Origin: Marasmius tenuissimus
Lineage: Eukaryota; Basidiomycota; Agaricomycetes; Agaricales; Marasmiaceae
Length of the DNA stretch: 64,000 nucleotides
Direction: 5' to 3'
Assembly: GCA_029532415.1 (NCBI GenBank)
Contig: JAQOTA010000014.1
Span: 558,001-622,000 of the forward strand
Each line of letters begins with the position of its first letter. Positions within the stretch are counted from its first letter, which is position 1. The translations under genes were made by a program, and so were the position numbers. The notes beneath the pieces were generated by a model, which was given only the letters and a program-made list of their open reading frames with translations, had not been told where the DNA came from and did no database searches. Below, piece by piece: positions 1,311-20,556 of the stretch.

Positions 1311-1759
1311 TTTTGGCTCCTTGCTCCTTATCGTTGCCTGACGATGTTCCTTGGGGCCTTGTCTACATGTTTTCTTCTCGACCATGGGCGAAAGGACAAA
1401 AAGCTCCAAGTCTGTCTTTGTGCGCACAGTTAGAAAGAGCAAAAAAAGGCCAAATTAACATGTAAACGACTGACTCGTGGCAGTGGTACTGAGCCTCTCA
1501 TATAGTCAATTTTCTTGCCAGTGTTCACTGTTATCAAGATTTCGCTGCGTTGGGGAACCCAACAAGGTCAGCTCAGCATTCATAACCGTGTTAATGTACT
1601 GATTGCGCACCTCTAGTCCCCTTCTAAGCCGTAACGTGCAGAATGTCTGCTCTTTGAATTTCTACACCCAACCCTGCATATATAGAATCCGCCGGGTGAG
1701 ACTCAGAACATGTTTGCTGCCTTTCCTGTCAGAATATTCGAGAGACGTTGCAAGCGGGG

Positions 1760-2296
1760 ATCAAGCTACTCACCAAGGCTCTTTCTGCTGGTATATTTTG
1801 ACAGGTATGCGAGTGCGAAAGAAACCGAAGTTGGTGAAAAATTGAGATCATCGTGGTTCGAGAGAGAGAGAGGTACCGGAGCGGACCTCCGGCGTGGCAC
1901 ACTACAGACACCGAGCACGAGTTGGGAATCCGGCTTCACATTCCTCGGTTGATGTGACCAGTGACAACTCCTCGATATACATCTGAAGAGACGGCATTCT
2001 TTTGTCCACTGAGATCTAGACCGGAGTTTCCAGACTGAGTCTGAGCGGTGAGCACTCCATCCTTGTTGTTCAGCCAATCCTATTCCGCCACTGAGCCACG
2101 TATCCGTCGTGTTCTCGGAGGTTGCCATCGTTGTTCTTTCGGCTCAAGACCAAGAATGAGTGAGTGAGCTAGAAGATGATTCCAGATGGCGATGGTCGAG
2201 GGCAACATATTTTGGTCCCATAAGAGTCCACAGGTGCACGTGGCTGGCTTACCAGTCAACTTCTTCCCACGAGCAGTTCCTGACTCTCCTACAACC
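1760..2296. other. Spacer upstream of F-box/LRR copy 1
   Basis: No gene is recognised. The stretch around 1860-1900 (GAGAGAGAGG followed by GGAGCGGACCTCCGG) resembles the flanks of copies 2 and 3 near 19825-19860 and 22775-22810. Bases around 2185-2250 resemble the upstream regions of copies 2 and 4 (about 17270-17330 and 32160-32230), where a block with CCCACAGG and CACGTGG is kept. These shared blocks are probably parts of the family's promoter. Confidence 0.4.
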
Positions 2297-2637
2297 TCCA
2301 TGCTCTTTGAGGCCACGAGCACCATTGACGGTACCTCTACTCTCAAGACATATGACGAATACGAAGTAATTCGAACCTGTTGTGGCTCAGCCAGTAGTCG
2401 GCCGGGCTCAACGCTACGGTGGTCCGTGACCTTATCAATATCGGCGACTACCACGAGACGCCCAAATCCGACTCGGAGCCTATTCCCACAGACACAAGGT
2501 TTGATTGGAGACAACCCACATACTTTGACAGTAAACGCTCTATCGACAGCCAATTGGCGCGCCCAGGTCTTCCTTCACGTCAAGCACTCATTTCATTCAA
2601 ACTGAGCATAGATTCAATAGGTTCGAACTACGAAGAA
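2297..2637 (+). promoter_or_regulatory. Promoter/5' leader shared by F-box/LRR copies 1 and 3
   Basis: From TCCATGCTCTTTGAGG (2297) to the start codon this sequence is almost identical to 20212-20556 upstream of copy 3, with only small indels. The frame is open upstream of the chosen ATG, but this stretch is not conserved as protein in copies 2 or 4, so it is read as untranslated leader and promoter. Confidence 0.5.
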
Positions 2638-4578
2638 ATGGAGTTGGACGGTATCGACACACCTTTCTCCCATGTATTGAACACGAACTATTCTCCCTCG
2701 ACTGAAGAGCAACGTTCGATTCGAGATCTTATTCGAGGACCAGAACAGCAGATCCGCCAACTGGATGAAGAAATTTCCCGGCTTCAAGCTGAGAGACAGG
2801 CATTGAAGCAATTCGTCGACCTTCATCGTGCCCTCCTCTCGCCATTTCGTCGACTTCCTGCAGACGTTTGGAGATCGATCTTCTTCCGAACTCTTCCCGA
2901 GAATGCACTCGGTCTCTGCACATACACAACAAAAAGTTCTCCGCTCCTGCTCACTACCATTTGCCGATCGTGGCGAGAGATTGCTCTCACCACTCCGAAC
3001 CTCTGGACTTCAATCCATATTCATATTCCGATAAACTCCTCGAGCACCCCCGACCTGGGTTATATTACAAGGCTGCGCAAGAGGAAGGAAGGTCTCAAAG
3101 CCTGGCTTGATAGGTCGGGGTCTCTCCCGATCACCATCTCCCTCACAGCGCAGATATATTTTAAGGATCGCGTGCCTGTATCTCAGAGCGAAGTTGAAAT
3201 TTCGGAACCTTTGCGCGCCCTTACCACCGAGTACATCGAGCTGCTCGTACAGTATTCGCCCCGATGGAGAACGGTGGCCTTCAACAATGGGGTTCATCTG
3301 TTAAATCTTACTCCACTCGAGAAGTTAACACCGAGCTCCCTGTCATCCCTAGAGTCGTTCCACAGCTTTTCATACTTTCCCTACCTTCGCGAACAAGTAA
3401 CGAACACTGACGGCGACCACGAGCTCTCCCTTCCCTCCCCTCTCAAAAATCTCTTCACCAAAGCATGTTCGCTGCGAAAGCTTGAATTTCTCTATGACAG
3501 CATTTCCGCAGCAAGACTATCATCGCTTCCGGTATCCTGGCATCACCTAACGGAAATCTCCATCATACGCCCAATATTGTTCACCCATTATTCGTCCCTC
3601 TATCCGAGTCAACTCATGCAGACTCTCGCAACCAAATGCCACTCCCTGACCACACTTTCCATCGTCCTCGAGGTTGACGGCGCCCCCCAAACTATATCTC
3701 ATCCCGTACAATGGCCTAGCCTCCAAAACCTCCGCGTAGTGTTGATCTTCATGTCAATCGGGCCCCCCCAGTTCATAAGCACGAATACTCCATACGACGC
3801 TGATACGACACTCAACTACTCGACGTTCCTACCATTCGTCATGCAAATCTTCGACAGTATCACCCTCCCCTCGTTGAAAAGGCTGTCGGTAGCTTTCAAC
3901 GGGGACTTGGAACATGGCGGTAATTACGCTGCTCGGCTACCTTTCGAAGACCTTATCCAGCGATCACAGTGCCCGCTTACCCATTTCGAGCTGTTTCATC
4001 CTCGTGTAGTCGCAGTGGAGGCGGTTATAAGGGTTCTTCGACAGCTGGAAACTCTGGTGTCGGTCAATCTGGGGTATAGCCGTTTGTCGGGAAGGGAGAG
4101 ACGGAAGGGCAGAAACGTTGCTTCGCCCTGGCAGAAAAATTGGCTGAGCCGAATCCTACGAGAGCTTTTGGGGGCTGAATTGGACTCGGACGTTGGAGCG
4201 CAGGCTGATGCATTCGTGGCGTTGCCATTGTGTCCTCAATTGGAGGAGCTCAACATTGGTGGATGTATCCTTGATGACCGAGATGCGTTGCTCGACTTCG
4301 CACAGAAGACTCGTAGGACAAGCCTGAAAACGTTCCGAGTTGATCTTGGGTTCCCCTTTTGGAATGATGTGTGGAAGCTTTTTGAGACGCTTCAGATGGA
4401 GAGACAAGATTCGGCGAAGATGAGGGTTGTACAAGACGTGGGAAAGATTATGGTGGATTGGAGGTGGGACGAGCAGTCGGGGGCCCCGAGATCAGTGTTG
4501 GATGCTCCGACCACTGGTCTGCCAGAGAAAGGCAGCTGGTGTATGGCGGCCCGCCCTGGACAAATATATAATTCTTGA
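2638..4578 (+). CDS. F-box/LRR-like protein, copy 1 (3' end replaced by the inserted element)
   Basis: Intronless, 646 aa. Start chosen at MELDGIDTPFSHVLN because all paralogues begin with this motif. Residues 28-62 are a predicted coiled coil (QQIRQLDEEISRLQ). Residues about 70-123 form an F-box (SPFRRLPADVWRSIF...CRSWREIAL...NLW). The remainder is irregular leucine-rich sequence with SLPVSWHHLTE, WPSLQNLRV and LEELNIGGC motifs repeated in all copies. F-box proteins usually act as substrate adaptors of SCF ubiquitin ligases. The last 12 residues differ from every paralogue because a 12.2-kb element begins at 4542, inside the codons for the family's WWNESLWL ending. The missing end lies at 16747-16768. 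There is also a 14-residue in-frame deletion relative to copy 3 near residue 495. Confidence 0.85.
   Translation: MELDGIDTPFSHVLNTNYSPSTEEQRSIRDLIRGPEQQIRQLDEEISRLQAERQALKQFVDLHRALLSPFRRLPADVWRSIFFRTLPENALGLCTYTTKSSPLLLTTICRSWREIALTTPNLWTSIHIHIPINSSSTPDLGYITRLRKRKEGLKAWLDRSGSLPITISLTAQIYFKDRVPVSQSEVEISEPLRALTTEYIELLVQYSPRWRTVAFNNGVHLLNLTPLEKLTPSSLSSLESFHSFSYFPYLREQVTNTDGDHELSLPSPLKNLFTKACSLRKLEFLYDSISAARLSSLPVSWHHLTEISIIRPILFTHYSSLYPSQLMQTLATKCHSLTTLSIVLEVDGAPQTISHPVQWPSLQNLRVVLIFMSIGPPQFISTNTPYDADTTLNYSTFLPFVMQIFDSITLPSLKRLSVAFNGDLEHGGNYAARLPFEDLIQRSQCPLTHFELFHPRVVAVEAVIRVLRQLETLVSVNLGYSRLSGRERRKGRNVASPWQKNWLSRILRELLGAELDSDVGAQADAFVALPLCPQLEELNIGGCILDDRDALLDFAQKTRRTSLKTFRVDLGFPFWNDVWKLFETLQMERQDSAKMRVVQDVGKIMVDWRWDEQSGAPRSVLDAPTTGLPEKGSWCMAARPGQIYNS
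4536..4541. repeat. Left target-site duplication CTGGTG
   Basis: CTGGTG lies at the end of F-box/LRR-homologous sequence and is repeated exactly at 16741-16746, where homology resumes. Joining the two flanks through one copy gives ...GGCAG-CTGGTG-GAATGAATC..., which reads GSWWNESLWL-stop as in paralogues 3 and 4. Confidence 0.85.
4542..4567 (+). repeat. Left terminal inverted repeat
   Basis: Starts TATGGCGGCCC and contains TGGACAAATAT. The reverse complement of 16715-16740 starts TATGAGGGACC and contains TGGACAAAAAT. About 17-18 of 26 positions agree without gaps, including the outer TATG and an eight-base block TGGACAAA. Confidence 0.65.
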
Positions 4579-4711
4579 TTTGGGCGAATCACGGTTGATC
4601 GCCGCCGGTCCCATGTCCGGTCTCGTCAATTTGACAGGACTGCCAGACGTTCGCCTTCGTACGACCGCTCTTTGCAGTCGAGCTGTCGACTGTCGAAGGT
4701 ATACCCAATTC

Positions 4712-4741
4712 TCCCACGAAAAGTACTTGTCTCCCACGAAA
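4712..4741 (+). repeat. Left subterminal motif pair TCCCACGAAA x2
   Basis: Two copies of TCCCACGAAA start at 4712 and 4732, exactly 20 bp apart. The right end has the same pair on the other strand with the same spacing (16609 and 16629). Paired subterminal motifs are typical binding sites for transposases. Confidence 0.75.
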
Positions 4742-4893
4742 ATGTGCTTCCGCTTCAGCGGTCGTGCTTCAACAGTGGGACTTTGAGCAGTGACTGAGTT
4801 GGCGTGATCAAACATGAGTTTTGTAAAATATTTTCAGCCTCAAGGGGTAGCAAGTAGAGTAGAGTAGATAGCTAATATGATAACAAGTAGGTA

Positions 4894-6658
4894 CTATACA
4901 TGACGGTGAGCTTTAGATGAAGGTAAACGACCATACATAGTATCCTTTCCCCAACCAGCCTCCTTGTCCTCGAGATAATCCAAAGATTTGGAGGGGAAGA
5001 AAAAGACGGTTCCGATGCGTCCTGGAGTGGTGGTGTGGCTGCGGGTCATCTTGGTGGATTTCCACTCGTCAATGGTGTGCCAAATGTAGTTGGCGTAAAG
5101 AAGGAGGATGTCACCTGGTCGGTACCTAAGTGAAAACATAAGTGAATGCCACGGGTGTTGATGAGTCGCATGAGATACGTACCACAACTTGACTCCAAAC
5201 TGGGGGATTATCAGATAACCTCCAGTGAACCTTCCGGCAGGAAAGCTGACGGATACACCCTCGTCCCCAACATCACAATGGAGGTAGAGCGGGAGTTTGT
5301 ACACGATGGCCCTACCAATAAAGCACCCACCACCCTCGTTTCCCACAACCCGTGCAGCCCCTCGCGCCTTTGAGAAGACTTTGTGCTGCTCTTCATGGAA
5401 GACCTCAATAGTGGCTTCTACACATTCTTCGAGGCACTCGTTCGTGTCGTAAAAATGCTCTGCCGCCATCTCGGCCTGACTGCTGCCTGCAAACGAAGAT
5501 GAGCGATGAAGTCCCTACGAAATAAGAGTGAGAAAGAATGCAGCACAGAGCGGTGAAAGACTTACCTCGTCGGGATGCCCTCTCTGTGGCCAGCCTTCGA
5601 CGAAATGATGTACGCCAGCTCCCTCTTCACCAGTCTTACCATTATCAGGACTGTACACGGGGGTGGGTGTTGGTTCTTTGGATCGTCGTGCACGAGCCTC
5701 CTTTGGATGAGACGTCCAGTTATCCATCTCGTTCGAGAGAGGAAAGGTGTTGGTAGCCTCGCCTGATGAGCCTTGGACACCATGTCGTTCCGAAGTGTGG
5801 TCGGGCTTTGGTCGGTTAAACGCACACAAGACCTGTGCACTTTCAGCGTATCGCTTGATAACCTCCTCCTACGAAATGAATTTGAGCCAATTGCACAATC
5901 AAGAGCAGGGGAAAACTCACCGGAAACCCATCATAATACATCTTTTGTTTCTCAGCCAAAGCATTTTGTACCGCATCAACAAGACGGTGACGATCCTCTT
6001 GACGATTGAGAGGTAGCTGGAGTTGAAAGATGAGTCGTGCATGATGAACGAATTGAGTGAGAACTCGTACCGGGTCTTCTGGAGCCTTTTCTTGAGAGGC
6101 ATACCGGTGTGAAAGGTAGGTCATCGCATGAGTACCATCCTTTGTCACCCATATTCCTGAAGTCGCTTGAACAGGGTACTCTGGTTTCTCCATCCTATTG
6201 ACAATGGCAGACAACCGTTCGAATTCGTTCATGTTCCCGGCTTCCTTTTTGAGCTCCTCCATCGTATACGGAACTTGAAAACGCGGTATGTAGGCCTTTG
6301 CTCGTGCAAGGTGGTGGCGGAGTTCTTGAGAGATATTCTTGCTCAATTTTTCGGGGTTTCGTCTCAGTCGTGCTGCAAGATGGCCACCTTTCTTCTTCTG
6401 TGCATGTACCTGGGTATAATGCGATACATTGGGAACAGGGATACCAATTTTGAACTACAAACTATCAGTTGCAGACCAAAAAACAAACAAAGGACCAAGA
6501 CGCACTTTTTTGGTTGCATTTTTTGCCTTTTCCTTTCTCTTTTTCACTGACTTTGTTGAGTTCAGCCTCTCTTTCCGTTTAGCAGTTGCCTTTGCATACT
6601 AAGAAAAATTATTAGTTGGAGAATTCTGTGATGAAAAGATGTGGCCTACCTTGTCCAT
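4894..6658 (-). CDS. TET/JBP-like 2-oxoglutarate/Fe(II) dioxygenase
   Basis: Six exons: 6650-6658, 6506-6598, 5921-6454, 5566-5868, 5183-5514, 4894-5125; five introns of 51-57 nt, all GT..AG and frame-consistent; 500 aa. The N-terminus is Lys-rich (about residues 4-35), suggesting a nuclear or nucleic-acid-binding tail. The C-terminal third is a double-stranded beta-helix: LYLHCDVGDEG gives the HxD iron pair (H392, D394), FTGGYLIIPQ and PGDILLL are core strands, YIWHTI supplies the distal His (H440), and TTPGRIGTVFFFP has the Arg (R460) expected to bind 2-oxoglutarate. This layout matches fungal TET/JBP-family enzymes that oxidise 5-methylcytosine or thymine in DNA; the substrate here is inferred. 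All catalytic residues are present. The gene lies inside the inserted element, divergent from the F-box gene at 6736. Confidence 0.75.
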
Positions 6659-6735
6659 GATGGCGGTAGTAGATCAAAAGTGGACGCGACGACGCGAGAG
6701 TGACAACGCGTGCGTGACATTCTTCACCACTCACC
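6659..6735. promoter_or_regulatory. 77-bp bidirectional promoter between dioxygenase and F-box genes
   Basis: The two start codons face away from each other with only 77 bp between them, so both genes must share this control region. It contains GACGCGACGACGCGAG and ACAACGCGTGCGTGAC, CG-rich short repeats. No TATA box is visible. Confidence 0.5.
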
Positions 6736-7766
6736 ATGATCATGCCTCACAAGTCCAAACCCAAAATGCGTAAACCACGACTCAAATTCGACGGCCGTTC
6801 CCCTCAAATTTATAGGTCTCGATTGGATAGAATCTGTCAGAAAATCAACTTCCGGTTTCCACCGAACAGCAAACGATTCAATGCACTCGTACCAAACCCA
6901 GACCTGTGGAGAAGATTGTTAGACCTGGCTCCAGAGATTTTTTATGAGGTGAGAGTTCACTTTTCAGCTCTCAGACAGTGCTAAATACTTGTAGATTATG
7001 TCCTGGTTACCCCCCAAAGACTTGCTGGCCCTTGCAGCATCAAGCAGTCAATTGAGGGAATTCTTGACCCATCCAGATGCCGACTACCCATGGAGAGTTT
7101 CACGACTGAATCACGTTGCCAAGGAGCCCATACCTGGGATGACAGATAGAGAACTGATCTGTTTCTTGCATGTTGAACCATGCTGTGAGGTGCAGGTGCG
7201 TCATGGTTCTGTTCCGGGTCTCTACATTTTCTGATATACATCCCAGTCCTGCGGCAGCAAGCACGATTTGAAGATGGACTTTTTTCGTTGCATTTGGTCC
7301 TGTACTTTTTGCCGGTTCACCCACAAAAAGTTGCTCTCCTATCATCTTTCTGGAATCACAGTGACTCATTCCCCAAAAGTTCTTTCCCCCGCCGCAAGTT
7401 TCGGGACAAGTTTCCGGGTCTTGACCAAGACATACTTGAATTCCTTGTCCCTATGATCAAGATGGGTACGTACAACTCAGAACCCAACTTGTACTTCACT
7501 AACTATCTACAGTTCACAAAGGACCTTTGGGACGAAGAGAAGAACAACATTACCTACTTGAAGATGTCAAGATGGTCCAATACGAGACACAGGGATTGGA
7601 AGGGGATGCTATGAAGGAGTACATGCGCACCAAGACAGAGGAGGTATCTGCGATGGTCGATGTATGTAGTCCATTTTGATTCTTCCATCTCTCTACTCAT
7701 GCACGACTCCTCCAGTTGGTTAATATGTATACCCGCTTGATCAAATCCGAACATGGGAAGAAGTAG
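6736..7766 (+). CDS. F-box protein with C-terminal Cys cluster, carried by the element
   Basis: Exons 6736-6948, 6995-7195, 7247-7465 (with an extra small intron or a frame error inside), 7513-7661 and 7716-7766. Visible introns are 46, 51, 47 and 54 nt with good splice signals; the third has a clear CTAAC branch site. After a basic N-terminus (MPHKSKPKMRKPRLK), residues about 65-105 are an F-box (LAPEIFYEIMSWLPPKDLLALAASSS). Then come scattered cysteines (PCCEV, SCGS, SCTFC) and a charged C-terminal part (LEGDAMKEYMRTKTEEV) typical of an agaricomycete F-box family. Between about 7330 and 7400 the frame must shift by two. A 32-nt (GTTGCT..ACAG) or 65-nt intron could explain it, or the gene is damaged. 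Its likely role is an SCF adaptor. A hydrophilic-tail gene of this kind is not a transposition function, so it is probably cargo. Confidence 0.65.
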
Positions 7767-9046
7767 TCCATCGGAAGAGATGTCAATTTTTCTTGTCGCT
7801 ACGGCTATAGTATCAATGTAATCAGACAATTCAGCGTTCACCTTTCATCACAAACCTCATCTTGTCGCGGTACCCTGAGCGACCGAATGAACAAAATACG
7901 CCGACACGACAACGAAGACCTTTGCTCTCAACTGTCATGCAAAGGCGGTATACAAACCCTCGAGCTCTGACCTGGACCGCTCGAGCTGTATGCTATTCCT
8001 CTAACACGCAGGTGTTCTCATTCGACACCGGCACTGCGTTACAACCGTTGTTCTCGCTGCTCCCCCCCTCTACTAGCGGACTCGTAGTCCATCCTTATCC
8101 CCTCGACGGCCTTACATTTGGACTACGCCATGGAAACACGTTGAATAGACTACGGGAGACACCAGGTGCCGCAATCAGAGAGAGAAGCCGGCGATGAAGG
8201 GCACCAGCTAGCTCAACGAGACGACTGGCCGACCTCAGTAACAACATGGTCTCTTCGATTCTCTTCGCCATCTCGGGTCACTCACTTGGTCCGGGGGAGA
8301 GCCTCAAAAAAAGTTCCAGCGACCGTTTGTTTGTCGATCTCTCTGGCACTCGCAACGCCGCCCGAGGGAACGTTCCAACGGTGCTCCCTCCAAGCTTCAG
8401 GCGTCCATCTTTCCGTCTCCCAAGTACACACGTCGCCTGAATCAACATCCACACAACCACACCAACGGTTTCTCCGATAACTAGACTGTCGGCGGGGACA
8501 GCTCTTGTACCTTGTACGGTACTGAGAGCTGGGATCGATTTTCCGACCTCGCACGTTCGACCGTGCCATCGGGTCCGTTGGGGGAAAGCAGAAGGAGAAT
8601 GAGAAAAAGAGGGAGGGGCAGCGCATTCATTAGGCGTATAACAAGACGCCAACCAAGGCACGTCGACCCTCATCAAGTAGCGAAGTTATCCAATGCTCGC
8701 TCGCTCCTTCACCCCACGGGTTCGACACCAAGAAGAAGACGGTACGATGTCGCATCTCTATGAAATCGCGTCCATATAAACTGTGAATGAGAGTCGAATT
8801 CTTCCGGCTCCGTTCACGTTCCCGTTGAGCTTAATGTAATCGATCCGAGGATGACCAGCGGTGGTGTGGTGACCGTGAGTCGAGTAAAATTTGGTCCTGA
8901 GGTTAATCTTACCTGCCTTTCCAGATCAATCGAACGCTGTATACTTCAGCCTTCGTGGACATATCCTTCTCGGGATCACCCATCTCGTGCTCCTCGCCCG
9001 AAGGTGTATGCGAGGAGCTACTCAAATGGTGTACCTGGGCCCCATT
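7767..9046. other. Gene-free stretch inside the element
   Basis: No reading frame here carries a recognisable domain or a consistent exon chain on either strand. Overlapping frames of 60-130 codons exist at 8166-8760 on both strands but look random in composition. It may hold untranslated or decayed cargo. Confidence 0.4.
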
Positions 9047-10146
9047 CTAGCCGACTCGTCCGGCGAAACTAGCAACTCTGGCGACGTTGTTAACGCCAAT
9101 CCAGATTCTTCCCGCTGAGGTACAAAAGTTATATGGATCGATTGGTCACCCGAGATTGTGAGGAGTCAGGCTTACCCGTCAACAGCGACAACAAGCCATT
9201 CAAGATGGCGATTGCGAGTAATGTTCCATCACTGATACGTACCCCTTCCCGATACACGTAGAATTTCAGGGGATCGGCCGCACCGATGGAGCGCGCAATC
9301 ACAGTTCCAAGGGATACTCCTAGTCCAAAGTATGATGGTCAGCATTTACTTGTTCTAAGAGGGGGTGTTCGACATACCGTTGAGGATAAAAGCCCCGACA
9401 CCGAGAGTGTATAGGACAGTCTTCTTATTGTCCCAAAGTACGTAGCACCGGTGAATCTGGAATGGAAACTGTTAACAAGGAATCCGGTCCTGGATACTCC
9501 AAACTCACGAGCATGAGATCAGCAAGAGAACTTCAAATAATCGTGTTAGAGGCTGCGTATACTCTCAACCAAAAGTGGGTCCGGCGCACTTCATCAAGGT
9601 GGGTATGAGGAATGTGATAAATCTAAGAGGATCGGTGGGAAAGCTGAAGCCATGGACTAAACCCGAAGAGCAAATAGTACGTACAACCAAGCATTTTTCC
9701 TGGCGTCACCCCGGATTAGGTACCACAGCATAGGGTCAAGTTCCTTTGTTTTCACGGCACGAAACATGACAGTGGCCTCTCGTGTCATACCGAATGCCTG
9801 CATTCCAACGTATAAACTTGCGAGAGCGAACAGGGAAACTGTGCACCATAAGTATAGTCCTAGTTGAGACCTTTGACGACGAAGAAGTACGTGCATGCAG
9901 AGGCCGAAGACGATCGTATACATCCCTGCCCAGGTGATATGTTAAGAGCTATCGAAATATGGTTCCAATCGATAGCTCACCGTAGACGACGAACATGGGC
10001 TAGTGGTGCAAGCATGTTCAGAAATGAGAGGGGAAGTAGATTTGGCGATCACTTACCGAGAGCGTCGCAACAGGCGCCACAACAACACTCTGAACTGTAA
10101 GGTAAGGTTCTATAAGTTCTTCGAGAGTAGGTGGTTGGGAGGCCAT
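9047..10146 (-). pseudogene. Decayed multi-pass membrane protein gene
   Basis: Starts MASQPPTLEELIEPYLTVQ at 10146. Several short introns can be read (for example GTAAGTG near 10055 and GTGAGC near 9980). Membrane segments: VFGLCMHVLLRR (about TM1), LWCTVSLFALASLYVGMQAF, NTII/SSLADLMLIHRCYVLW, TVLYTLGVGAFILNG and LLAIAILNGLLSLLT, ending GRIWIGVNNVARV. The 'HRCYVLW' and 'GRIW' marks belong to a large agaricomycete family of seven-TM proteins of unknown function. It is broken: an in-frame TGA (9533-9535) interrupts the NTII/SSLAD helix, the preceding exon joins in the wrong frame, and a stop at 9047-9049 removes the usual last two helices. Probably a host gene captured by the element. Confidence 0.6.
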
Positions 10147-10337
10147 TGAGAGTCTCAGGGAATTGAAAATTCGTTATACGAGATCCTTTGCCTTAGTACC
10201 AGGTGCGCCAGGATCTTTTATACTTTGTCTTTGCCTCACATTAGGACGGCGGTAAGATCCGCTCGATAAATGAAAATCACCTCATGACGCGTAGTTCCGA
10301 GTCCTAATGTACAAACAAGAAAAAAGCTATTAGTATT

Positions 10338-11030
10338 CTACCGATATATACCCTTCAATTGACTTTCCACGGCATCAGCCGACATTTTGATATCTGGTAG
10401 GAAACGACTGTTAGAGTGGCTCTGGTTGACACGGTAACAGCACGACACGTACACTTCTGGGGATCTAACGACACCAGCCAAATGGATAACGCCGACGGGG
10501 GAAACCTCATTAGTGATGTGGCGTATCTCAAGGAACAAACGAACCACTTACTCTTGCTAAACTCTTTCTCGCGATGCTTTTGCGTAAACGCCTTGAGCGA
10601 CGGAATCACAAACTTGATCACATCGCTCCCGACAGCGTCCCGCTCCTCCGGATCATCCTCCAATACAGGAGCAATCTTGTGTCGTTCCAGAACTTCCTCC
10701 AGCAGGTCGTAAAAACGCGTGAATTTCTCTTTGGTGGCACCCCTCCCGGCTTTCTCTTTCGGATCGTCAGTCAAGGCCTGCATGAGCGGGGAGAAGTTAG
10801 CATCGAAGTAAGCGGATTTGGCGGTACGGAAGTTGGAGTTAAGGACGTCTTGGGTAGGTTTGGAGAGGTAGTCGAGGAGTCGGTCGTCTTTGGGATCTAT
10901 GCAGATGTTCCTACGTAGGTAGGCGATGTTGTTGAGGAGGAAGACAGCGTTGAAAGGCGGCCTTCGTTGGCTTTTGGCAACCATGTTGAGTGTGCTTATA
11001 GACGTGTTGACGATATCCCCAAACTCTCTT
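10338..11030 (-). pseudogene. EXO70: C-terminal fragment of exocyst subunit Exo70
   Basis: From REFGDIVNTSI (about 11030) to MSADAVESQLKGIYR-stop (10338), about 170 codons align with the C-terminal end of fungal Exo70 (FLLNN..YLR, SKPTQDVLNSNFRTAKSAYF, FSPLMQAL, KEKFTRFYDLLEEV, SLKAFTQKHREKEFSKNPQKY). Exons: 10552-11030, a 12-nt micro-exon 10453-10464 (coding the NPQK turn) and 10338-10393, with introns of 87 and 59 nt. The frame is intact, but the first two-thirds or more of the usual 600+ residues are absent: the homology stops within about 10 bp of the integrase frame on the other strand. Exo70 tethers secretory vesicles at the plasma membrane; this fragment cannot supply the full subunit and is best seen as captured host sequence. 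Confidence 0.8.
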
Positions 11031-11037
11031 TGGCATC

Positions 11038-12044
11038 ATGATGGTCAACACGGTGAGCATATATACAACCCGTACTGCCAGCCCTCAACCTAATCTCTGG
11101 GATCTAGGACTCATCAAGTATAAAATTGTCATTCACGCTTTCATTGATGGGTTTTCTCGGTTTGTGACGTGCATCCGTGCTCACAACAACAACCGCGCGG
11201 AAACAGTCCTAGACTTGTTTGTAGAAGCTGTTCAGACTCACGGTTGCCCTAGCAGGGCAAGGGGAGATCATGGAACAGAGAATGTCATGGTGGCGGAGTT
11301 TATGGAGACGATGAGAGGACAGGGAAGGGGATCCTATATATTTGGAAAGTACGTATCGATTTTCTGCTGTGCGAGTTACTATTCATTCAGTTCTCTACTA
11401 GATCTATTCACAATATCCGAATAGAGAGACTCTGGAGGGACGTTACCCTAGGCTTCGGTGCAAAGTGGAAGTGGTTTTTCGAACAGCTCGAACAGCGGGA
11501 GCACCTCAATTGCGCCAACCCGGCGCATATATGGCTTCTCCACTTTCTCTTTCTTGACGCCATCAACACTGATGCTATTCTTTGGGCGGAAGCTTGGAAC
11601 CACCATAAGATGTCGCTCCCACAGCAAAAGTCTGCATCGCCCAACGAGATGTTTGTGTTTGGTATGATGGAGAACGGTATCCGTGGCATGGATGAGATTT
11701 GGAACTACAATGATGAAAATCACGTACACTTTGAAAGTCAAGAGGATATCGATTCATATGGGGTGGACTGGGAGGAGATGGAGAACCGTACGATCTATCA
11801 GCACCATGTGGAAAATAACACTGAAGATACAGAGCAGGAGCCCTTCAATCCCTTTAGCACATACCATCCAAATCTCTTCTCTCATGTCGAAGTAGAACCC
11901 CCTACTTGCCCTCTTACCGTCGACCAAGTTGATATTCTCAAAGATCGTTTATCACAACTTCCATACATACATCGTCAGGATATTGAAAGCCGTCGTTTAC
12001 TCTGGCAGAACGCTTTATTTACATGTACAGAGCTTCTGGTGTAG
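11038..12044 (+). CDS. rve-type (D,D,E) integrase/transposase, 5'-truncated
   Basis: Exons 11038-11348 and 11402-12044 around a 53-nt intron; 317 aa. The catalytic core is recognisable: HAFIDGFSRFVT, ARGDHGTENV (second Asp), SIHNIRIERLWRDV (catalytic Glu), then IWLLHFLFLDAIN and WAEAWNHHKM, as in the 'integrase core domain' family widespread in agaricomycetes and some animals. Relatives have a long N-terminal part and an LWHxDG block for the first Asp. Here only about 20 residues precede it and the block is shortened to LWDLG, so the first active-site region looks damaged. The Exo70 fragment begins on the opposite strand about 8 bp upstream, suggesting that the 5' part was replaced. The gene is transcribed toward the HECT-like gene 160 bp downstream and likely mobilised the element. 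Confidence 0.7.
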
Positions 12045-12203
12045 GTAGAACATGAATTCTTTGGGGTAACGAAACACGTGTGACGTTCAGTGGGAAGTTT
12101 GGGATTGACAGCAGCTTACGCGTTGCCTGTCCTTTCCTTCATACCGCCATCTCTCTCTCTTTTTTCCTCCACTCCCTTCTCTCTATTTATTTCTTTAATC
12201 AAG

Positions 12204-15200
12204 ATGGCACGTAAGTGTCGTCCAAGCTGCCCTCACGGATGTGCAGACCTGTCTCCAAATCCAGGCGAGGTATGTTATTCAATCCAATTTTTTTTACCGA
12301 CCTTATCTGATGGCTTTCAAGCCTGGTCATTGTCTGTGCGGATGCTCCGAATCAGATCATGTAGATGCCCAGTTACCTCCTCCTCTTCCCAGTAAAGGAG
12401 GGATACCTGGGGTCTGTACGGGTTTTCAGTGCACGGTATATCAGTTGTTTGATCTTTTTTCTTCTATTGTTGTTCTCATCTTATCTATACAGGGACCAGC
12501 AAGTCGGTTTACTTCTTGCACTCAGTGCAATAACAGCTGGATACAACATCTCAATGATGATAGTCCCACCACTAATTCAATGCCAGCCTCACAGGCTTCT
12601 ACGACTTCTTCCTTTCCCGCATATTCTCAGCTTTCCTCTTCCTTTTCGACCCAAAGTTCTTCCCTTCCTTTGTCTTCTCTCCCCCCTCCCCAAACCACAT
12701 CGTTCTACAGAAACAATGTTCCTATCTCTGCCTGGCGAGGTACACCCGGACATTCTACAGGAACCACATCTTCTGCATTCTCGTCCAGACCCCCTGCTCA
12801 ATCCATCCCCACGGGAGCAGCTGCTTCATCTTCCTCATCATCAGACCCGGCGTCTTACACTACTCCTTTTGTCAGCACAACCCCAGTTCTCCGGAACGTC
12901 AGCAACCCACGAGGTTCAGCCAGAACTAACGCATTCACGATCACGGCAGACTCTGTTAAAGGGAAAGCCAAATCTACCAAAGTGAAAGCTAATGATCCGC
13001 CCTACACGACAATTCAGATGGATAGGGTCAATGGAGGATTCTTCCAGGAAGTCGCCGTTCTCATTCTAGGGTATCACCCGTCTGCCACATTCCTTCCCGA
13101 CCACGACAACTTGACCATCACCCCCAGGATCCTGACTGCGTACCAAACTACCCAGATGGAAACCGCAGCACAGCTCTCTCATATCGTCGAGTTCAGGATC
13201 AACGTACAGAATCCTGCTACAGACAACGTATATCCTGCTGTTTATGGAACTATCGTTCAACATTTCTCGGATCGAGGAATCCTCTTTGGTGGCGAGCCCC
13301 TCTCCCCTGATGCCCCATTGTCGTCGCCATTCATTCTCTGCAAACTTGGCAGAAAATCGACTCCCAAGAATGCGCCAGAGGGTGCCACAATCTGTGTCAC
13401 TGATACCAACACCAAGTGGACCTTGGATGGGTTGAACCAGACAACAAGCGATTGTTCTATCAAACCCCACTACAAGAACAAACTGGTCGTCTTTTTGGGT
13501 ATGTTTTGGACTTGTCGAAGAATGACAACATTTCTGACGACCCTTTATCAAGCACCGAAACACATTATGCATGGTCCTCATTCCAGCGGAGAACCTCATC
13601 CATGCTATGGCTTCAAATTCAATCACGCGTTCATGGACACGTCTGATAGTCAGAGTGCACTGCCAGAACTGGAGTGCCTGCCGTCTTGCCCAGGACAGGG
13701 CAACCTATCAGGCGAGGAGGAGGAGATCGAGTACGAGAACGAAAGCCAGGAACAGGAAGAAGTGGAGTCTGTATTCACTGGCAGTCGTAGGGGCAGGCCA
13801 ACGACCGTCACAATCACCCGAAGGGTTAGGCGTCGTCTCTACTCACCCTCTCCCGAGCCCAATCCCTCTGGATCAGAACGTTTGGGTACATCACCATCGC
13901 CATCATCTTCATCGTCTTTACCCCCAGTTAATCTGTTTTGGGACTCGCCACCCTTACCCTTCACTGCTCTGCCGGGATCACGTTCTCCCTCACCTTCAGC
14001 CCCCTCTCCATCAGCTCAGGTGGTCGAAGAGCTCCTGTCACAGCAACGCGATAGGTCTCCTTCTGTCGAGTACTTGGCAACTGTTCCTGCACCCAATGTC
14101 GATCCGGTTCCTCGGGGAATTCCGCAGACAGCGCCTGGTTTCCTGCACGCTGTTTCAGATCGATATAGCTTTGATGAGACGAGGCCAGGAATAAAGATGA
14201 CTGCAACCAGTACACGGTCTGCTGCCTGGGCATTGATTGAATGTCTTCGCTGTCATCATTCTGGCGAACCTATTCCCAGAACTGTGTCAGATCCCAACGA
14301 TAGCGATGGATTTGCTGTAATCAACAACTTTGTCTTCGATAGACTCCTATGCCATTGGTCATTGATTGAGATGTGAGTTTGTTTTTCTTCACAGTGCATT
14401 CCATGTATTGACATCATTCTATTGTTAGAAACCCTGGTGCAGGCGATGGTGTACTGAAGAATGTTATCCGACAGTGCATAGAAACCATGGCCAGCAACGA
14501 CGAGCTCTTCAGGCCTATTCACGATGGCCTTGTTACCTGGGCATTCTCGCCAGGTTCCACCACCCCAGAGCGCATCGTCTGGGCAAAAGTTACAGGCTCT
14601 CTTATGGCGCTGCACTTGGCATGGCTGAAGAGCACACCGCACCCGTTTGATCCAATCTACACCGCTCTGATGGTTGTCAGCTTTGACGTGGTGAAGGCTT
14701 TGGAGTATGTGAACACAATCCACCCCGATTTGGGACATCAACTTGCTATCTGGCCCGACTTTGACAACAAGAACACCACTTTTGCATCGACGGATCGAGC
14801 AGTCAGGAACGGCTTGCAATACCTGGTCAATACGTTCTTTTGGAATCTGACTGTGCGTACTTTTTTCATTCACACTATGATCTTTCGTTCTTACTTGTTG
14901 TCAGTTACCGCAAGTCAGAAATATCTCCACGCGACTAGATTGGGATATTCAGACTGACAAGCTGAAGGCGCAAGCCCTCTTTGCAACCACACCCGAGTCT
15001 CTCATATCGGAAGAAGTTGATGCTGCCAGGAAGGGATTCAGGGGGATGAAGGTCGATCCTGGAGTCTATCTCTCTGATGTTTGTTGATTCATTTCCTTGT
15101 GTTTCTATTCGCAATACTAATCCGCTTTTGAATAGCTTCTCAATGAGGACAATGCGTACACTATCATCACGGAACTTTGCGCAAAAGAAGTCAAGGATCC

Positions 15201-15917
15201 CGAATCCGTGATCAAAATCACAACATACCCTTCCCCATTCTCGGTATGGGAAGACGCAGACTTCCTTACTGCATTCAAGCGTAGATTTGCAAAGTATATC
15301 CGAGGTCAAGGACACCCCAAGACGCTTGTCCGGGAGAACCTTTTGTCTGCGAAAGATCTGGAGCAGGCGGCAAGTAACATGTCGTGCTATCGTGCTGAAA
15401 TGTTCTTGAAGATGGCGACTGGGGTGAAGCTTGTTCCTCATCCATTTGAGGGAAGAAGTTCTCATATCAAGGTGCGTCGTACGTTTCTCTTTCTTATCTA
15501 GATATTTGACTGATCATGCTCCAATAGATGTCGTTCCTACGGATTATTCCTCCACCCCCACCTTCCTCTGAAGAGTCTCGTCAACTTGAATCCGAGGTTG
15601 CGTCTGAGGCTGAAGAGTCCTTCCTTCCCTCTGTCACAGCCAGTGATCTGACAGCGAGTGGAAGTTCTACCACTGGAACGTCAAGTACTATTGCTAGGAC
15701 TCGCAGAAACACGAAGCCGCTCCCCCATGCAGGTCAAATCATTGCTTCTCACTGCGCGCGTACAGTGACAATCCATGTCAATGACGACCTGATCACCATG
15801 GTAAAGGATATACCAGAAGACCTAGACTCCTCCGACTGCGAGGACGACATATTCGCAGATTTCTTTCACAAAAATATCATCGCCATCAGTGGAGAGAGCG
15901 ATTACCAAGCCAGATAG
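12204..15917 (+). CDS. Cys/His-cluster protein with C-terminal HECT-like domain
   Basis: Eight exons (12204-12269, 12322-12435, 12493-13498, 13553-14372, 14429-14852, 14905-15078, 15136-15471, 15528-15917); introns 52-57 nt; 1109 aa. A pyrimidine-rich promoter precedes the ATG. Residues 1-80 carry a Cys/His cluster (CLCGCSESDH, GVCTGFQC, SCTQCNNSW) likely to bind zinc. A Ser/Thr/Pro-rich linker and a conserved middle part (about 245-460) follow. From about residue 670, NPGAGDGVLKNVIRQ, NDELFRP, PERIVWAKVTGSLMALHL, FDPIY and later FLKMATGVKLVP follow the order of landmarks in HECT ubiquitin ligases (G.GVLREWF, LF, FIGRVLGLAL, FY, FVTG). A C-terminal Cys in a TCFN-like context is not visible, so ligase activity is doubtful. 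The last exon is acidic and disordered. Same strand as the integrase, 160 bp apart. Confidence 0.6.
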
Positions 15918-16600
15918 ACTGTATGTTTCGCCTTGTCATATTTCGTTTCATTTTCTTGCCCTTACCTTACATGTTGTTCCTAATCACTGCTGCTCTCATG
16001 ATTCGTTCTCGTTACTGCTGCTTTACAATCCTGACCCATTCTCATCGGAATCCTTCATTGCTCACTGTTACTGATCATTTCGCTTGCTGTTGTTGCTCAT
16101 TTTGCTCACGGAAACTGCTCAATTCGCTCACTGTTACCATTTGCTGTACCTGTTACTCATCCGCACGTCTCTGTATCGCTGCTTCTGCTCATGTATCACC
16201 ATCCTGCTTTGCTCGTTCATGCTCGTCCAGTACGGTAGAATCTTCTCTCTCGCTACAATACCTACTGTCTCAACCAGTCTCTGCCGCTGTAATCATGTTA
16301 TTGCACTCTCGAACTGCTACTGTACTAGTATACGTACTCAATGTTGGTGCTTTGCCGTTTCTTGTAACCACTATTGTACCGCCCTCTCGCCGTAAAGTAG
16401 TCTTCTGAATGATAACTGTTTTGTCGACTACACGTACCGTGCGAGCGCTTTGAATTGATCGATATCTGGTGGTATATGAAGGGTCTGATATATTAGTATG
16501 CTTACACCTGCATGAAGACCCCGACGTAGCTACCAGTGTGCGAGGGAAAAGACACCAGGTTGAAAGCAAAGGGGCGACTGATGAAGGTCGAAGGTGACGG
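15918..16600. other. Pyrimidine-rich right arm of the element, no gene
   Basis: No gene seen. Between 16040 and 16300 the sequence is rich in TGCTC/CACTG motifs, including GCTCACTGTTAC twice (about 16061 and 16127) and repeated TTGCTCA, giving a loosely repetitive tract. It lies downstream of the HECT-like gene and upstream of the right subterminal repeats. Confidence 0.4.
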
Positions 16601-16608
16601 TCGAGGAC

Positions 16609-16638
16609 TTTCGTGGGAAGCTGAAAACTTTCGTGGGA
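16609..16638 (-). repeat. Right subterminal motif pair TCCCACGAAA x2 (reverse strand)
   Basis: TTTCGTGGGA at 16609-16618 and 16629-16638, the reverse complement of the left-end motif, with identical 20-bp spacing. Confidence 0.75.
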
Positions 16639-16714
16639 ACGTGTAGCTTCAACGTCGACCGTCCGAGCACGAAGGCATTCGACGTCAACGCGGATGACCA
16701 AGACGAACGTCATC

Positions 16715-16740
16715 ATTTTTGTCCAAACAGGTCCCTCATA
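16715..16740 (-). repeat. Right terminal inverted repeat
   Basis: Ends ...TTTGTCCAAACAGGTCCCTCATA, the inverted partner of 4542-4567. A nearby GACGTTCGTCTTGG on the reverse strand (about 16698-16711) matches GACGTTCGCCTTCG at 4646 on the left. Confidence 0.65.
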
Positions 16741-16746
16741 CTGGTG
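16741..16746. repeat. Right target-site duplication CTGGTG
   Basis: Exact copy of 4536-4541. Sequence to its right is homologous to the 3' end of F-box/LRR genes, sequence to its left is not. Confidence 0.85.
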
Positions 16747-16880
16747 GAATGAATCGCTTTGGCTGTAGGCATAACTGTATCGCGTTCTGTTGGTGGCTAT
16801 GACGATGAGAGGCGACTCGCCAACTATTCCTTCGTGTGTATCCGACAGGTCTATGAGTGCGAATTGAAGCTTGAAGCTTG
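16747..16880 (+). pseudogene. Orphan 3' end and 3' flank of F-box/LRR copy 1
   Basis: 16747-16768 encodes the last residues NESLWL and a stop, as in paralogues. The following flank (TAGGCATAACTG..GACGATGAGAGG..TTCGTGTGTAT..CAGGTCTATGAGTGCGAATT) matches the 3' flanks of copies 2 and 3 (19587-19800 and 22528-22740). It is the displaced end of the gene at 2638-4541, cut off by the insertion. Confidence 0.85.
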
Positions 16881-17705
16881 AAGTCTGATGGCTAAGAGCC
16901 CTCAATATCTCTTTGAGGAGATGTTGTTCTTCAATAGACCATCAATCTTTGGTGGTTTCGGCCTTCAGGAACCCGCGCAAAGCTGGCCATTGTCATGGTT
17001 GAGCGGAGAGTTCTGCGGCCACCTGCATGCATTGTGACGCACCTGGAAGGTCTTTGTCCTGAGGAAACCGTCCCGAATGGCAGAAAGAGATTCTCGACGG
17101 TTATGTATCTGGGCCCGATCCAAGTAAGTTCGAGTTTGAGCACTCTATCCGTGTTTTTAGCTGATTCCGTTTCTCTATTGTAGCTATGTACCCGTAATGC
17201 TGTAGATGACTCTATTTCTTGCTTCACAGGGCTGAGACGAAGTGAGTTAGAAACACAAGTCGAACCATGATCATGGTGGTTGAGGGTAAACATATTTGGA
17301 CCCATGAGAGCCCACAGGCGCACGTGGTCAGGTTCCCAAATCAACGCGCCAAGCTCTTCCTACGGACAGTTTTTGGACTTCCTCCACAGCCTCCATGTCA
17401 ACACATCTTCTTCAGGTCGACGAAAGACTCTGGCTACACCTCTGCCAGTCTAATCGATGCACACGAAGCAGCGTGAGCTCGCCACGACGGTGTGCCGTTT
17501 GATCAGCGATTGCCACGATATGCTCGAATCCGAGCCTAATCCCACCCAGTCACCCTGGTGTCACAAGGCTGATGAGGATCGGGGACGACACGCCTACCTT
17601 GATAGCAGGAAGCTTTGTCATGGAACTACTTGGTGCGTACTGACCGTCCCTTACGTCGAGTGCTCAAATTCATCCAAAACAACATCAGGTTCAGTCTTTG
17701 AAGAA
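16881..17705 (+). promoter_or_regulatory. Upstream region of F-box/LRR copy 2
   Basis: No separate gene seen. The block at about 17270-17330 (ATTTGGACCCATGAGAGCCCACAGG..CACGTGG) is shared with the upstream regions of copies 1 and 4, suggesting a conserved promoter element. A frame from 17457 runs into the gene but its extra residues are not conserved in paralogues. Confidence 0.4.
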
Positions 17706-19586
17706 ATGGAGCTCAGTATCGATACGCCTTTCTCCCATGTGTTGAACACGAATTACCCTCCCTCGACTGAAGAGCAACGTTCGATTCGAGATCTTATTCG
17801 AGAACCAGAAGAGCAGATTCGCCTGTTGGACGAAGAAATATCCCGGCTACAAACCAGAAGACAAAAGTTAAAGCAATTTGTCGACCTTCATCGTGCCCTC
17901 CTCTCGCCATTTCGTCAGCTCACTGCAGACGTTTGGAGAATGATCTTCTTCGAAACTCTCCCTGACAATATACTTGGCCTCTGCACACGCACGACAAAAA
18001 GTTCTCCGCTCCTGCTTACTACCATCTGCCGTCTGTGGCGAGAGGTCGCCCTGAGCACACCGAGACTCTGGAATTCCATCCATATCCATCTACCGATAGA
18101 ATCTTCCAACTCTCCGGATCCGGACTGCATCATAACATTGCACAGGCGAAAAGAAGGACTCAAAGCTTGGCTCGATAGGTCGGGGTCTCTACCCGTCACT
18201 ATCTCCCTCACAGCGACGCCGAATCAGGGCGGACAACCATTTGCGATAGCGGAATCTTTGCACGCCATCGCCACCGAGTTCATTGAGCTTCTCGCACAGT
18301 ACTCGCCCCGATGGAGAACGGTTGCATTCAACAGTGGGGTTCATCTGTTGGATCTGACTCCAATCGAGCGGTTGCCAACGAACTCCCTGTCAAATCTAGG
18401 GTCGTTTTGTAGCTCTGGAGCCCTCCGTAACAATCACAGAACAGAAACAGTCACCAACGTTGACCACCTCCAGAATCTCCTTACCAAAGCACGATCACTC
18501 CGGCGGCTTAGATTAGTCGACGACACCATTTCCCCAGCAACACTATCCCTTCCAATATCCTGGCATCACCTGACCGAGCTCACCATCGCACGACCAGTAT
18601 TACTTGACAATAGTTCGTCATTCGAGCCGAGTCAACTTATGCAGACTCTCGCGGACAAATGTCGCTCACTGATCACACTTTCTATCGACCTCGACGTCAT
18701 GCCCGCTCCTGACACTACCCTTCATCCAGTACGATGGCCTAGCCTCCAGAATCTCCGCGTAGTCTTGTCACCATTTATGTCAGACTGGCAGCGTCACTTC
18801 ACAAGCACGAACGCTTCAGATGATACCACGTTCCGGCCGTTCGTCATACCAATTTTCGATAGTGTCACTCTCCCCTCCTTGAAGAAGCTATCCGTAGCTT
18901 TCGGCAGCTCGTACCGGCAAGATGGTGATCAAGCCACTCAGCTGCCTTTTGAGAATCTCCTCCAACGATCGCAGTGCCCGATTACCCATTTCGAGCTGTT
19001 TTACCCCCACATAGTCACAGCGGAGGCGGTCATAAGGGTCGTTCGACAGATGGAAACCCTGGTGTCGCTCAATTTGGGGTATATGGGAAGGGAGAGACGA
19101 TGGCAGAGTTCACCTGGAGTTTTTGTGGAGTTGTCGGGACCCTGGGTCGACCAAACTGCTCCTTCGCGCAGGCGGAAGAACTTGCTGAACAGCATCCTAC
19201 GAGAGTTTCTGGTGGCTGGATTGGACTCGGACGTCGAAGCGTTGCCGTTGTGTCCTCTATTGGAGGAGCTAAACATTGGAGGATGTACCATTGATGATCG
19301 AGATGCGTTGCTCGACTTCGCACAGAAGACTCGTAGGGCAAACTTGAGAACGTTCCGAGCTGATCTTGGGCAGCCCGTTCGGAGCGATGTGTGGAAGATA
19401 TTTGAAACGCTTCAGGTGGAGAGACAAGATTCGGAGAAGATGAGGGCTGTGCAAGACGTGGGAGGGATCATGGTGGATTGGAGGTGGAACGAGCAGTCGG
19501 CGGAGATCTCGAGATCACTTTTGGATGCTCCGACAACTGATCTGCCAGAGGAAGGTAGCTGGTGGAATGGATCACTTTGGTTGTAA
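17706..19586 (+). CDS. F-box/LRR-like protein, copy 2
   Basis: Intronless and uninterrupted, 626 aa, starting MELSIDTPFSHVLN. Coiled coil (EEQIRLLDEEISRLQ) is followed by an F-box (SPFRQLTADVWRMIFFETLPDN...CRLWREVAL...RLW) and an irregular leucine-rich region ending LEELNIGGC and GSWWNGSLWL. The C-terminal 80 residues are nearly identical to copy 3, while the N-terminal three quarters are clearly diverged from it. Probably an SCF substrate adaptor; no partner can be named. Immediately upstream lies the remnant of copy 1. Confidence 0.85.
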   Translation: MELSIDTPFSHVLNTNYPPSTEEQRSIRDLIREPEEQIRLLDEEISRLQTRRQKLKQFVDLHRALLSPFRQLTADVWRMIFFETLPDNILGLCTRTTKSSPLLLTTICRLWREVALSTPRLWNSIHIHLPIESSNSPDPDCIITLHRRKEGLKAWLDRSGSLPVTISLTATPNQGGQPFAIAESLHAIATEFIELLAQYSPRWRTVAFNSGVHLLDLTPIERLPTNSLSNLGSFCSSGALRNNHRTETVTNVDHLQNLLTKARSLRRLRLVDDTISPATLSLPISWHHLTELTIARPVLLDNSSSFEPSQLMQTLADKCRSLITLSIDLDVMPAPDTTLHPVRWPSLQNLRVVLSPFMSDWQRHFTSTNASDDTTFRPFVIPIFDSVTLPSLKKLSVAFGSSYRQDGDQATQLPFENLLQRSQCPITHFELFYPHIVTAEAVIRVVRQMETLVSLNLGYMGRERRWQSSPGVFVELSGPWVDQTAPSRRRKNLLNSILREFLVAGLDSDVEALPLCPLLEELNIGGCTIDDRDALLDFAQKTRRANLRTFRADLGQPVRSDVWKIFETLQVERQDSEKMRAVQDVGGIMVDWRWNEQSAEISRSLLDAPTTDLPEEGSWWNGSLWL

Positions 19587-20211
19587 GCATAGATGTGTCG
19601 CGTTGTTTTGGAATTGGTCATAACGACGAGAGGATGATATTGTACGATTCAAAGTTCGGATTGATAAGAGAAATTGTACTGTTTTCGACCCCGCTTCCCG
19701 CCTGGCCCTCGAATTTCTGGAAAGATATTGGAATAGTGAGTATAGGGCTACTCACCGACCAGTCTTTCGTGTGTATTTGGGCAGGTCTACGAGTGCGAAT
19801 TGAAGTTTAACACCATGCCCATTGCTGGTTCGAGAGAGAGAGGATGAACACCGGACCGGACCCCCGCCTCAGCGCATTGGTGGCCAGTCAGCCAATTAGA
19901 AATGTTTCATTGTTCTAATCGTAAATGTTCCTTGTTTCTTCGCGACCACCATAGTCTCAATAGCCAATGTACATGAATAGCGTCGCTATCTTCTTATTTC
20001 AACTCGACTTAAACAGGGCATCTCGTATTCATTCTCACCGCCTCAATCTTCAACCTTCCGAAAGGGCTCAGCAATATCAACATTACTGACATAAGAAAGA
20101 AGATGTCGAACCCAGTTAATCTTACCACCTTGTTACGACAGGCTTTCTTCGTTGTGGATTTATCTGGTTTGGGGAATCGGGACTGATCACTACATCTAGT
20201 CTCCAGGTACG
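19587..20211. repeat. Direct repeat R1: 3' flank of F-box/LRR copy 2
   Basis: About 80% similar to 22528-23150 downstream of copy 3. Shared landmarks include ATAACGACGAGAGGATGAT, CTTCCCGCCTGGCCC, GTATAGGGCTACTCACCGA, CATCTCGTATTCATTCTCA, AAGAAAGAAGATGTCGAACC and GGGGAATCGGGACTG. Homology stops abruptly at 20211, where copy-1-like promoter sequence begins. No gene is recognised in it. Confidence 0.7.
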
Positions 20212-20556
20212 TCCATGCTCTTTGAGGTTACGAGCACCATTGACGGTACCTCTACTCTCGAGACATATGACGAATACGAAGTAACTTGAACCTGTTGTAC
20301 TTAGCTCAGCCAGCAGTCGGCCGGGCTCAACGCTACGGTGGTCCGTGACCTTATTAATCATATCGGCGACTACCACGAGACGCCCAAATCCGACTCGGAG
20401 CCTATTCACACACAAGGTTTGATTGGAGACAACCCACATACTTTGACAGTAAACGCTCTGTCGAAGAGCCAATTAGTGCGCCCAGGTCTTCCTTCACGTC
20501 AAGCACTCATTTCATTCAAACTGAGCATAGATTCAATAGGTTCGAACTACGAAGAA
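20212..20556 (+). promoter_or_regulatory. Copy-1-type promoter of F-box/LRR copy 3
   Basis: Near-identical to 2297-2637 and unlike the sequence upstream of copy 2. It is the left end of a tract of copy-1-like sequence that runs to about 22278. Confidence 0.55.

Follow-up and report, generated by a model that had tools for sequence, protein, structure and literature searches.

The accessible parts of the literature describe IS3EU transposons as elements with TA..TA ends that usually create target-site duplications (TSDs) of 6 bp (PMC10045372). In rust fungi, according to the sections available of a recent survey, IS3EU elements combine 6-bp TSDs with terminal inverted repeats (TIRs) of more than 30 bp and the ends TAYGG..CCRTA, and the TET-carrying IS3EU listed there come from seven species of rust and from Tuber indicum (Kojima, 2025; PMC12730594). 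For the Agaricomycotina, the same sections name Kyakuja, Zisupton, EnSpm, Plavaka and Helitron2 as TET carriers (PMC12730594), and the available text of the Marasmius oreades genome paper reports KDZ and Plavaka elements (PMC8290104). Judged by title, none of the publications found for IS3EU, or for IS3EU together with F-box, reports a TET-carrying IS3EU in mushrooms. Here, we describe a probably IS3EU-type transposon in a stretch of 64,000 nt of Marasmius tenuissimus DNA (hereafter, the window), which corresponds to positions 558001-622000 of contig C54 in a genome assembly of 71 Mb in 70 contigs. The insertion itself is ordinary; the interest lies in an IS3EU-type element of an agaric that combines a divergent TET/JBP-like gene (gene A), found again at the ends of related elements, with captured host DNA and methylation-like scars.

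A cut-and-paste DNA transposon has inserted, with a 6-bp duplication, into a gene for which we keep the name F-box/LRR given to it in the original prediction. As stated there, F-box/LRR homology breaks off at one CTGGTG and resumes at a second: both copies are present at 4536-4541 and 16741-16746, and joining the flanks restores the host open reading frame (ORF) to ...GLPEKGSWWNESLWL-stop (GSWWNESLWL-stop), compared with ...GSWCMAARPGQIYNS-stop when the insert is in place. Because only the last residues change at the interrupted C-terminus, the host gene keeps nearly its full length; a Pfam scan of this ORF found no family at E ≤ 0.01. The empty site that was to be sought in the same genome was found at a paralogous locus on the same contig (L023, C54:427000-432800). 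This locus matches window positions 1601-4543 at 96.6% and 16741-19595 at 95.8%, both parts join at one single CTGGTG, and the paralog ends GSWCNESLWL-stop. The predicted recency of the insertion is plausible, given that the 941 bp preceding it (window 3601-4541) have two mismatches to the empty paralog, though not proved, as gene conversion between the paralogs could give the same result.

Further copies were likewise found. In the parts that both have, the second copy (C19:1452786-1466322, reverse strand) shows 97-98% identity; it lies in unrelated DNA and is flanked on both sides by GGGTTA. The occurrence of the same 12 kb between unrelated flanks had been proposed as a sign against an insertion; we read this copy, which has its own duplication, as evidence that the element is mobile, which leaves the insertion reading unrefuted. 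A diverged left end was detected at C27:1744066 (81% over 781 bp), and a search for the end pattern TATGRNGGNCCNNNNTGGACAAA that tolerated a single mismatch gave 30 genome matches against 0 for a reversed control. TSDs were surveyed in all nine end pairs for which both ends were available; the pair C23:79111/83935 was omitted, and the other ends from the pattern search had no partner among its matches. The TSD was perfect in eight pairs (C54 CTGGTG, C19 GGGTTA, C28:1216619 CAGTGC, C30:323169 CACTAC, C41:594630 ATTGGC, C60:87120 CATCAT, C43:343252 AAACCC and C30:1145860 TTTCGA) and matched at 5 of 6 positions in the ninth (C14:300355, AACGAG/AACGAT). Long elements among the nine pairs are those on C54 and C19, on C43 (343252 to ~361609) and on C30 (1145860 to ~1161519); the right ends of the latter two were picked by eye and, read inwards, begin TATAACGG. 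The pairs read have TA..TA termini, except for the right end on C60, which begins CATG. Given the nine TSD pairs, the second copy and the existence of an empty site, chance and assembly artefact are ruled out.

The inverted termini TATG...CATA of the original prediction are present in the window copy and imperfect (18 of 26 positions identical), and both ends contain TGGACAAA. Pairs of the repeat TCCCACGAAA lie 0.1-0.2 kb inside each end and occur nowhere else in the window. These repeats were rejected as a feature of the superfamily, being present in just 4 of the 22 ends examined, all on C54 or C19. Five of the nine pairs, at C14:300355, C28:1216619, C30:323169, C41:594630 and C60:87120, bound elements only 0.8-1.4 kb long, with ends of the same kind; these resemble derivatives of the kind known as miniature inverted-repeat transposable elements. 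An Rfam search of window positions 4500-16800 gave no match.

The transposase places the element among those with an integrase-like catalytic core. The ORF at 11038-11424 matches the Pfam family rva_4 (PF24764) at 2e-27, over the cut-off, and rve (PF00665) at 1.9e-6 (28.5 bits, below the cut-off of 32.6). This genome contains 71 rva_4 matches at ~35 loci, and none was found in 14 control genomes. KDZ and Plavaka are ruled out by the transposase family and the TSD length. Membership in IS3EU is likely, not proved: the placement is based on rva_4, the TSD and the ends. Against it count the TIRs, which match imperfectly and fall short of the >30 bp of rust IS3EU, and the fact that no alpha-kinase was seen among the nine element ORFs and the proteins P0001 and P0002 that were scanned. 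The left end, TATGG, fits the rust consensus TAYGG, to which the inward reading of the right end, TATGAGG, conforms only partly (available sections of PMC12730594); because of this right end and the TIR length, we do not assign the element to the rust type. GingerRoot elements likewise have 6-bp TSDs and mostly TA..TA ends, and IS3EU and GingerRoot are treated together in the text available (PMC10045372); given the fit of the left end to rust IS3EU, it is nevertheless unlikely that the element belongs to GingerRoot or to an integrase-like group of its own rather than to IS3EU proper. For the broader assignment we are confident: a cut-and-paste transposon of IS3EU/GingerRoot type that entered an F-box/LRR gene close to its 3' end, with gene A, host-DNA capture and CpG scars as its parts, is very probably the best explanation of the locus as a whole. 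The superfamily and these three parts had not been recognized in the original prediction. As a separate observation, the transposase loci L043 (C3:843697) and L044 (C5:1594055) differ at 5 of 3,060 positions, which may reflect very recent movement or segmental duplication.

Within the limits of the survey sections available (PMC12730594), the element shares with the TET-carrying IS3EU of the Pucciniales and Tuber indicum the 6-bp TSD, the TA..TA ends and an internal TET/JBP-type gene. It differs in its agaric host, in carrying an F-box gene and a further gene (gene B), in the gene A motif, which is HxD here and HxE in Kojima's PE type, and in the position of gene A, at the element end rather than between transposase and alpha-kinase. 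With the Kyakuja, Zisupton, EnSpm, Plavaka and Helitron2 elements of Agaricomycotina it has in common that a mushroom transposon carries a TET/JBP gene, whereas the transposases and the TSD lengths (7 bp in Kyakuja, 2-3 bp in Plavaka) are different (PMC12730594, same sections).

Gene A matches ten database proteins from Marasmius, Paramarasmius, Mycena and Suillus, the best at 96% from Marasmius tenuissimus. Tet_JBP was the best Pfam family in four of the five A-family proteins scanned (E 1.7e-4 to 2.3e-3), and a profile of the ten proteins retrieved four PDB sequences at E ≤ 10, all of them TET proteins of Naegleria or Coprinopsis (E 0.006, 0.0074, 1 and 1.1). An HxD...H iron-binding motif aligns with that of NgTet: in the ten sequences, H374 (numbering of P0002) is invariant and D376 and H422 are present in at least 90%, the exceptions being P0010, with N at D376, and P0006, which ends before H422. 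Several observations tell against this assignment. The Tet_JBP scores (17.6-21.3 bits) fall short of the curated cut-off of 34.9, for which reason we use only the terms TET/JBP-type or TET/JBP-like; the fifth protein, P0004, gave no Pfam family; and the PDB match of the profile spans only ~50 positions. Taken together, weak but consistent evidence suggests that gene A encodes a TET/JBP-type dioxygenase. The same weakness of the Pfam and PDB matches would suit a 2-oxoglutarate dioxygenase unrelated to DNA demethylation, which we regard as an improbable identity because such matches as exist point to TET/JBP and because diverse fungal DNA transposons carry TET/JBP genes (available sections of PMC12730594).

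Genes similar to gene A were located at 11 places in the genome, nine of which (C54, C19, C27, C28, two on C10, C21, C30 and C43) are 0.3-0.6 kb inside an element end. On C63, a transposase is present at a distance of at least 8 kb from two blocks of matches, but no element end was seen; on C32, neither a transposase nor an element end was seen. The matches in both places (C63:786894-798024 and C32:844327-852127) are split into two blocks several kb apart, as if interrupted by other insertions. A tree of the 80-residue transposase core, covering 23 of the ~35 loci in this genome, separates the nine A carriers plus C47, where no A was detected, from 13 loci without a detected A (support 0.59), and groups the seven loci nearest the window (C54, C19, C30, C43, C28, C10:5443k and C21) at 0.89. 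Gene A thus appears to be associated with one transposon lineage.

The differences between the window copy and the C19 copy are concentrated in CpG dinucleotides. Over 9,741 aligned columns there are 141 transitions and 31 transversions, and CpG transitions make up 108 of these 172 substitutions, affecting 108 of 1,004 CpG positions versus 33 of 8,737 others (odds 31.8, p 8e-79). Within the element, GpC positions taken as a control gave odds of 1.6. For the flanks versus the empty paralog, the odds were 2.1 for CpG and 3.35 for GpC, and for the captured segment versus its donor, 2.6 and 3.7. Seven further locus pairs were compared, three of which have a strong CpG bias (L052/L053, odds 22; L077/L078, 18; L040/L055, 33, from nine transitions only). 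The bias is moderate in L076/L077 (5.0) and weak in L036/L041 (2.0), and L043/L044 (one transition) and L056/L057 (30 aligned columns in opposite orientations) are uninformative. This pattern, strong in the element and not in the flanks, has the appearance of 5-methylcytosine deamination, so that the element would have been methylated. Hypermutation resembling repeat-induced point mutation, of which a TCG-biased form is cited for Pucciniomycotina (Kojima, 2025; PMC12730594, sections available), could also bias substitutions towards CpG; it seems an unlikely source, because CpG was lost in both copies (81 losses in C19, 27 in the window) and in modest amount. A role of gene A in counteracting methylation would be in keeping with the presumed deamination scars and with Kojima's proposal.

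In the window copy, the transposase N-terminus has been replaced by a mosaic of host DNA. The two copies agree up to window position 8799 and again from 11018; between these points, the window has 2,218 bp of other DNA in place of 2,128 bp kept by C19. In C19, the replaced interval contains an F-box-like ORF and an ORF for the transposase N-terminus, and other family members, for example L045, likewise have an N-terminal part before the core. Having the core without this part, the window copy is probably non-autonomous. At least two C7 loci, separated by 4.7 Mb, supplied the captured pieces, and the donors are still in place. Captured segment 2 holds part of an Exo70 gene (Exo70_C, 5.6e-15), an upstream exon of which, recognized by eye at the donor, lies outside the captured stretch. 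As the donors persist and there are two C7 sources, copying with template switches during gap repair would be the simplest account. That the edges of 8800-11017, where no duplication was noticed, were viewed by eye only leaves some room for a nested transposon or the product of an ectopic crossover; such an origin is quite improbable, as the segment substitutes for sequence kept in C19 rather than adding to it and draws on both C7 loci. In plant Pack-TYPE transposons, the ends of a DNA transposon similarly enclose captured fragments of host genes, the donor locus being left in place, whereas the element described here is fungal and IS3EU-type and retains most of its own genes (text available of PMC8903248).

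Counted in bins of 200 bp, mismatches between captured segment 2 and its donor number 11, 14 and 9 in bins one to three, and there is 1 in the last 517 bp, a gradient that looks as if the true donor had been another allele. Some findings count against the explanation of the locus given above. Substitutions between filler and donor (47 of 1,901) exceed the differences between copies other than CpG transitions (64 of 9,741), so that a recent capture requires a donor allele unlike the assembled one. Gene A of C19 lacks 205 bp of the window's gene (5448-5651), and the frame of the C19 transposase core differs from that of the N-terminal ORF; C19 may therefore be defective too. Nor is C19 a clean ancestor, having 1,664 bp extra at window position 7952. 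CpG decay in the filler was dropped as a means of dating the capture: on the window side, CpG was lost at 5 of 237 CpG positions in the filler versus 27 of 1,004 in the rest. The extra sequence (C19:1461462-1463125), found in the C19 copy only, includes ~250 bp that are 88% like C20:1382891 and 110 bp that are 78% like C37:148023, and is possibly another capture.

A transposase with an integrase-like DDE core would bind the element ends, perhaps via the paired TCCCACGAAA subterminal repeats, excise the element and, if the chemistry of the superfamily applies, join it to target DNA in which the two strands had been cut 6 bp apart; filling of the gaps after joining would then produce the CTGGTG duplication. 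To judge from its weak homology, gene A would likely oxidise methylated cytosine in the element and so oppose silencing. In the window copy or its parent, copies of at least two host segments took the place of 2.1 kb that included the transposase N-terminus, presumably through template switching or gap repair, and this copy would need transposase from a relative. More speculatively, it is conceivable, if doubtful, that an IS3EU-type lineage in Marasmius-like mushrooms constitutes an anti-silencing package, with a terminal, divergent TET/JBP-type demethylase, in some cases F-box genes whose products might promote turnover of silencing proteins, and DNA with CpG scars, and that it also serves as a vehicle by which pieces of host genes are copied and shuffled, with some of its members relying on the transposase of relatives. 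If so, TET-carrying IS3EU would extend to mushrooms, for which the survey sections available list other transposons (PMC12730594); the idea that TET genes serve escape from silencing could be tested copy by copy, a demethylase-like gene and a mutational trace of methylation being on the same mobile DNA; and host-DNA capture by an integrase-type fungal transposon would be documented with its donors identified.

Table 1. Features of the element and its insertion site (window positions). Gene A was spliced by hand; its limits and those of gene B were set by eye, and those of the F-box gene are approximate.
Feature	Position	Strand	Basis or match
Host F-box/LRR ORF, last residues replaced by transposon end	2419..4578	+	ORF reading
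TSD, left copy CTGGTG	4536..4541	.	sequence
Transposon, probably IS3EU-type, 12,199 bp	4542..16740	+	ends, TSD, empty site
Left TIR, 18/26 identical to right	4542..4567	+	end comparison
Subterminal repeat TCCCACGAAA, two copies 20 bp apart	4712..4741	+	sequence
Gene A, putative TET/JBP-type 2-oxoglutarate dioxygenase-like, several exons	4894..6658	-	weak homology, hand splicing
F-box gene	6766..7770	+	F-box-like 4.4e-8, hand-spliced 128-residue piece
Region shared with C19; parts resemble C14 and C10 sequences	7953..8799	+	alignment
Captured host segment 1	8800..9047	+	98% to C7:1569954-1570201
Short stretch	9048..9100	.	C42:14822 (93% over 43 bp), C39:805975 (85% over 53 columns)
Captured host segment 2, part of Exo70 gene and neighbouring sequence	9101..11017	-	97% to C7:6294855-6296760
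Remnant of the transposase with catalytic core (rva_4) and C-terminal part, lacking the N-terminal part	11018..12043	+	Pfam, copy alignment
Gene B, multi-exon, follows transposase	12204..15917	+	96% to Marasmius tenuissimus AAF712_013594
Subterminal repeat pair, 20 bp apart, inverted relative to left pair	16609..16638	-	sequence
Right TIR	16715..16740	-	end comparison
TSD, right copy CTGGTG	16741..16746	.	sequence

The F-box-like ORF of C19 is divergent from its transposase and scores below the Pfam cut-off (0.0018). An F-box gene divergent from the transposase was rejected as a universal feature, being seen by eye at 3 of 24 loci (L052, L053 and L054), the window locus (L048) being among the 24; on two of these three, Pfam F-box scored 5.5e-5 (L052, over the cut-off) and 0.0018 (L054, under it). 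Downstream of the F-box gene, window positions 8345-8799 resemble C14:523505 (83%), C14:597598 (79%) and C10:4301017 (72%), and positions 8505-8690 resemble C10:5455075 (80%). For gene B, two protein searches found its M. tenuissimus counterpart P0001 as the sole match, no Pfam family appeared at E ≤ 10, and the single PDB match (E 0.87) was to an unrelated protein. A resemblance to HECT-type ligases was considered and dropped, having no backing from Pfam, PDB or the two protein searches. In a local search of 30 loci, gene B was confined to the window's own locus, apart from two weak matches at L052 and one at L053 (E 0.1-0.2).

Within window positions 2419-51392, F-box/LRR-like genes are clustered, among them those at 17457-19586, 20338-22527 and 32639-34642, and between them ORFs resembling NACHT-type ATPases were recognized by eye (25115-26536, 36778-38451 and 38844-40349). 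Divergence between the empty paralogous site and the window changes from 5-7% at the far left to near-identity beside the insertion, which suggests gene conversion within this F-box/LRR cluster.

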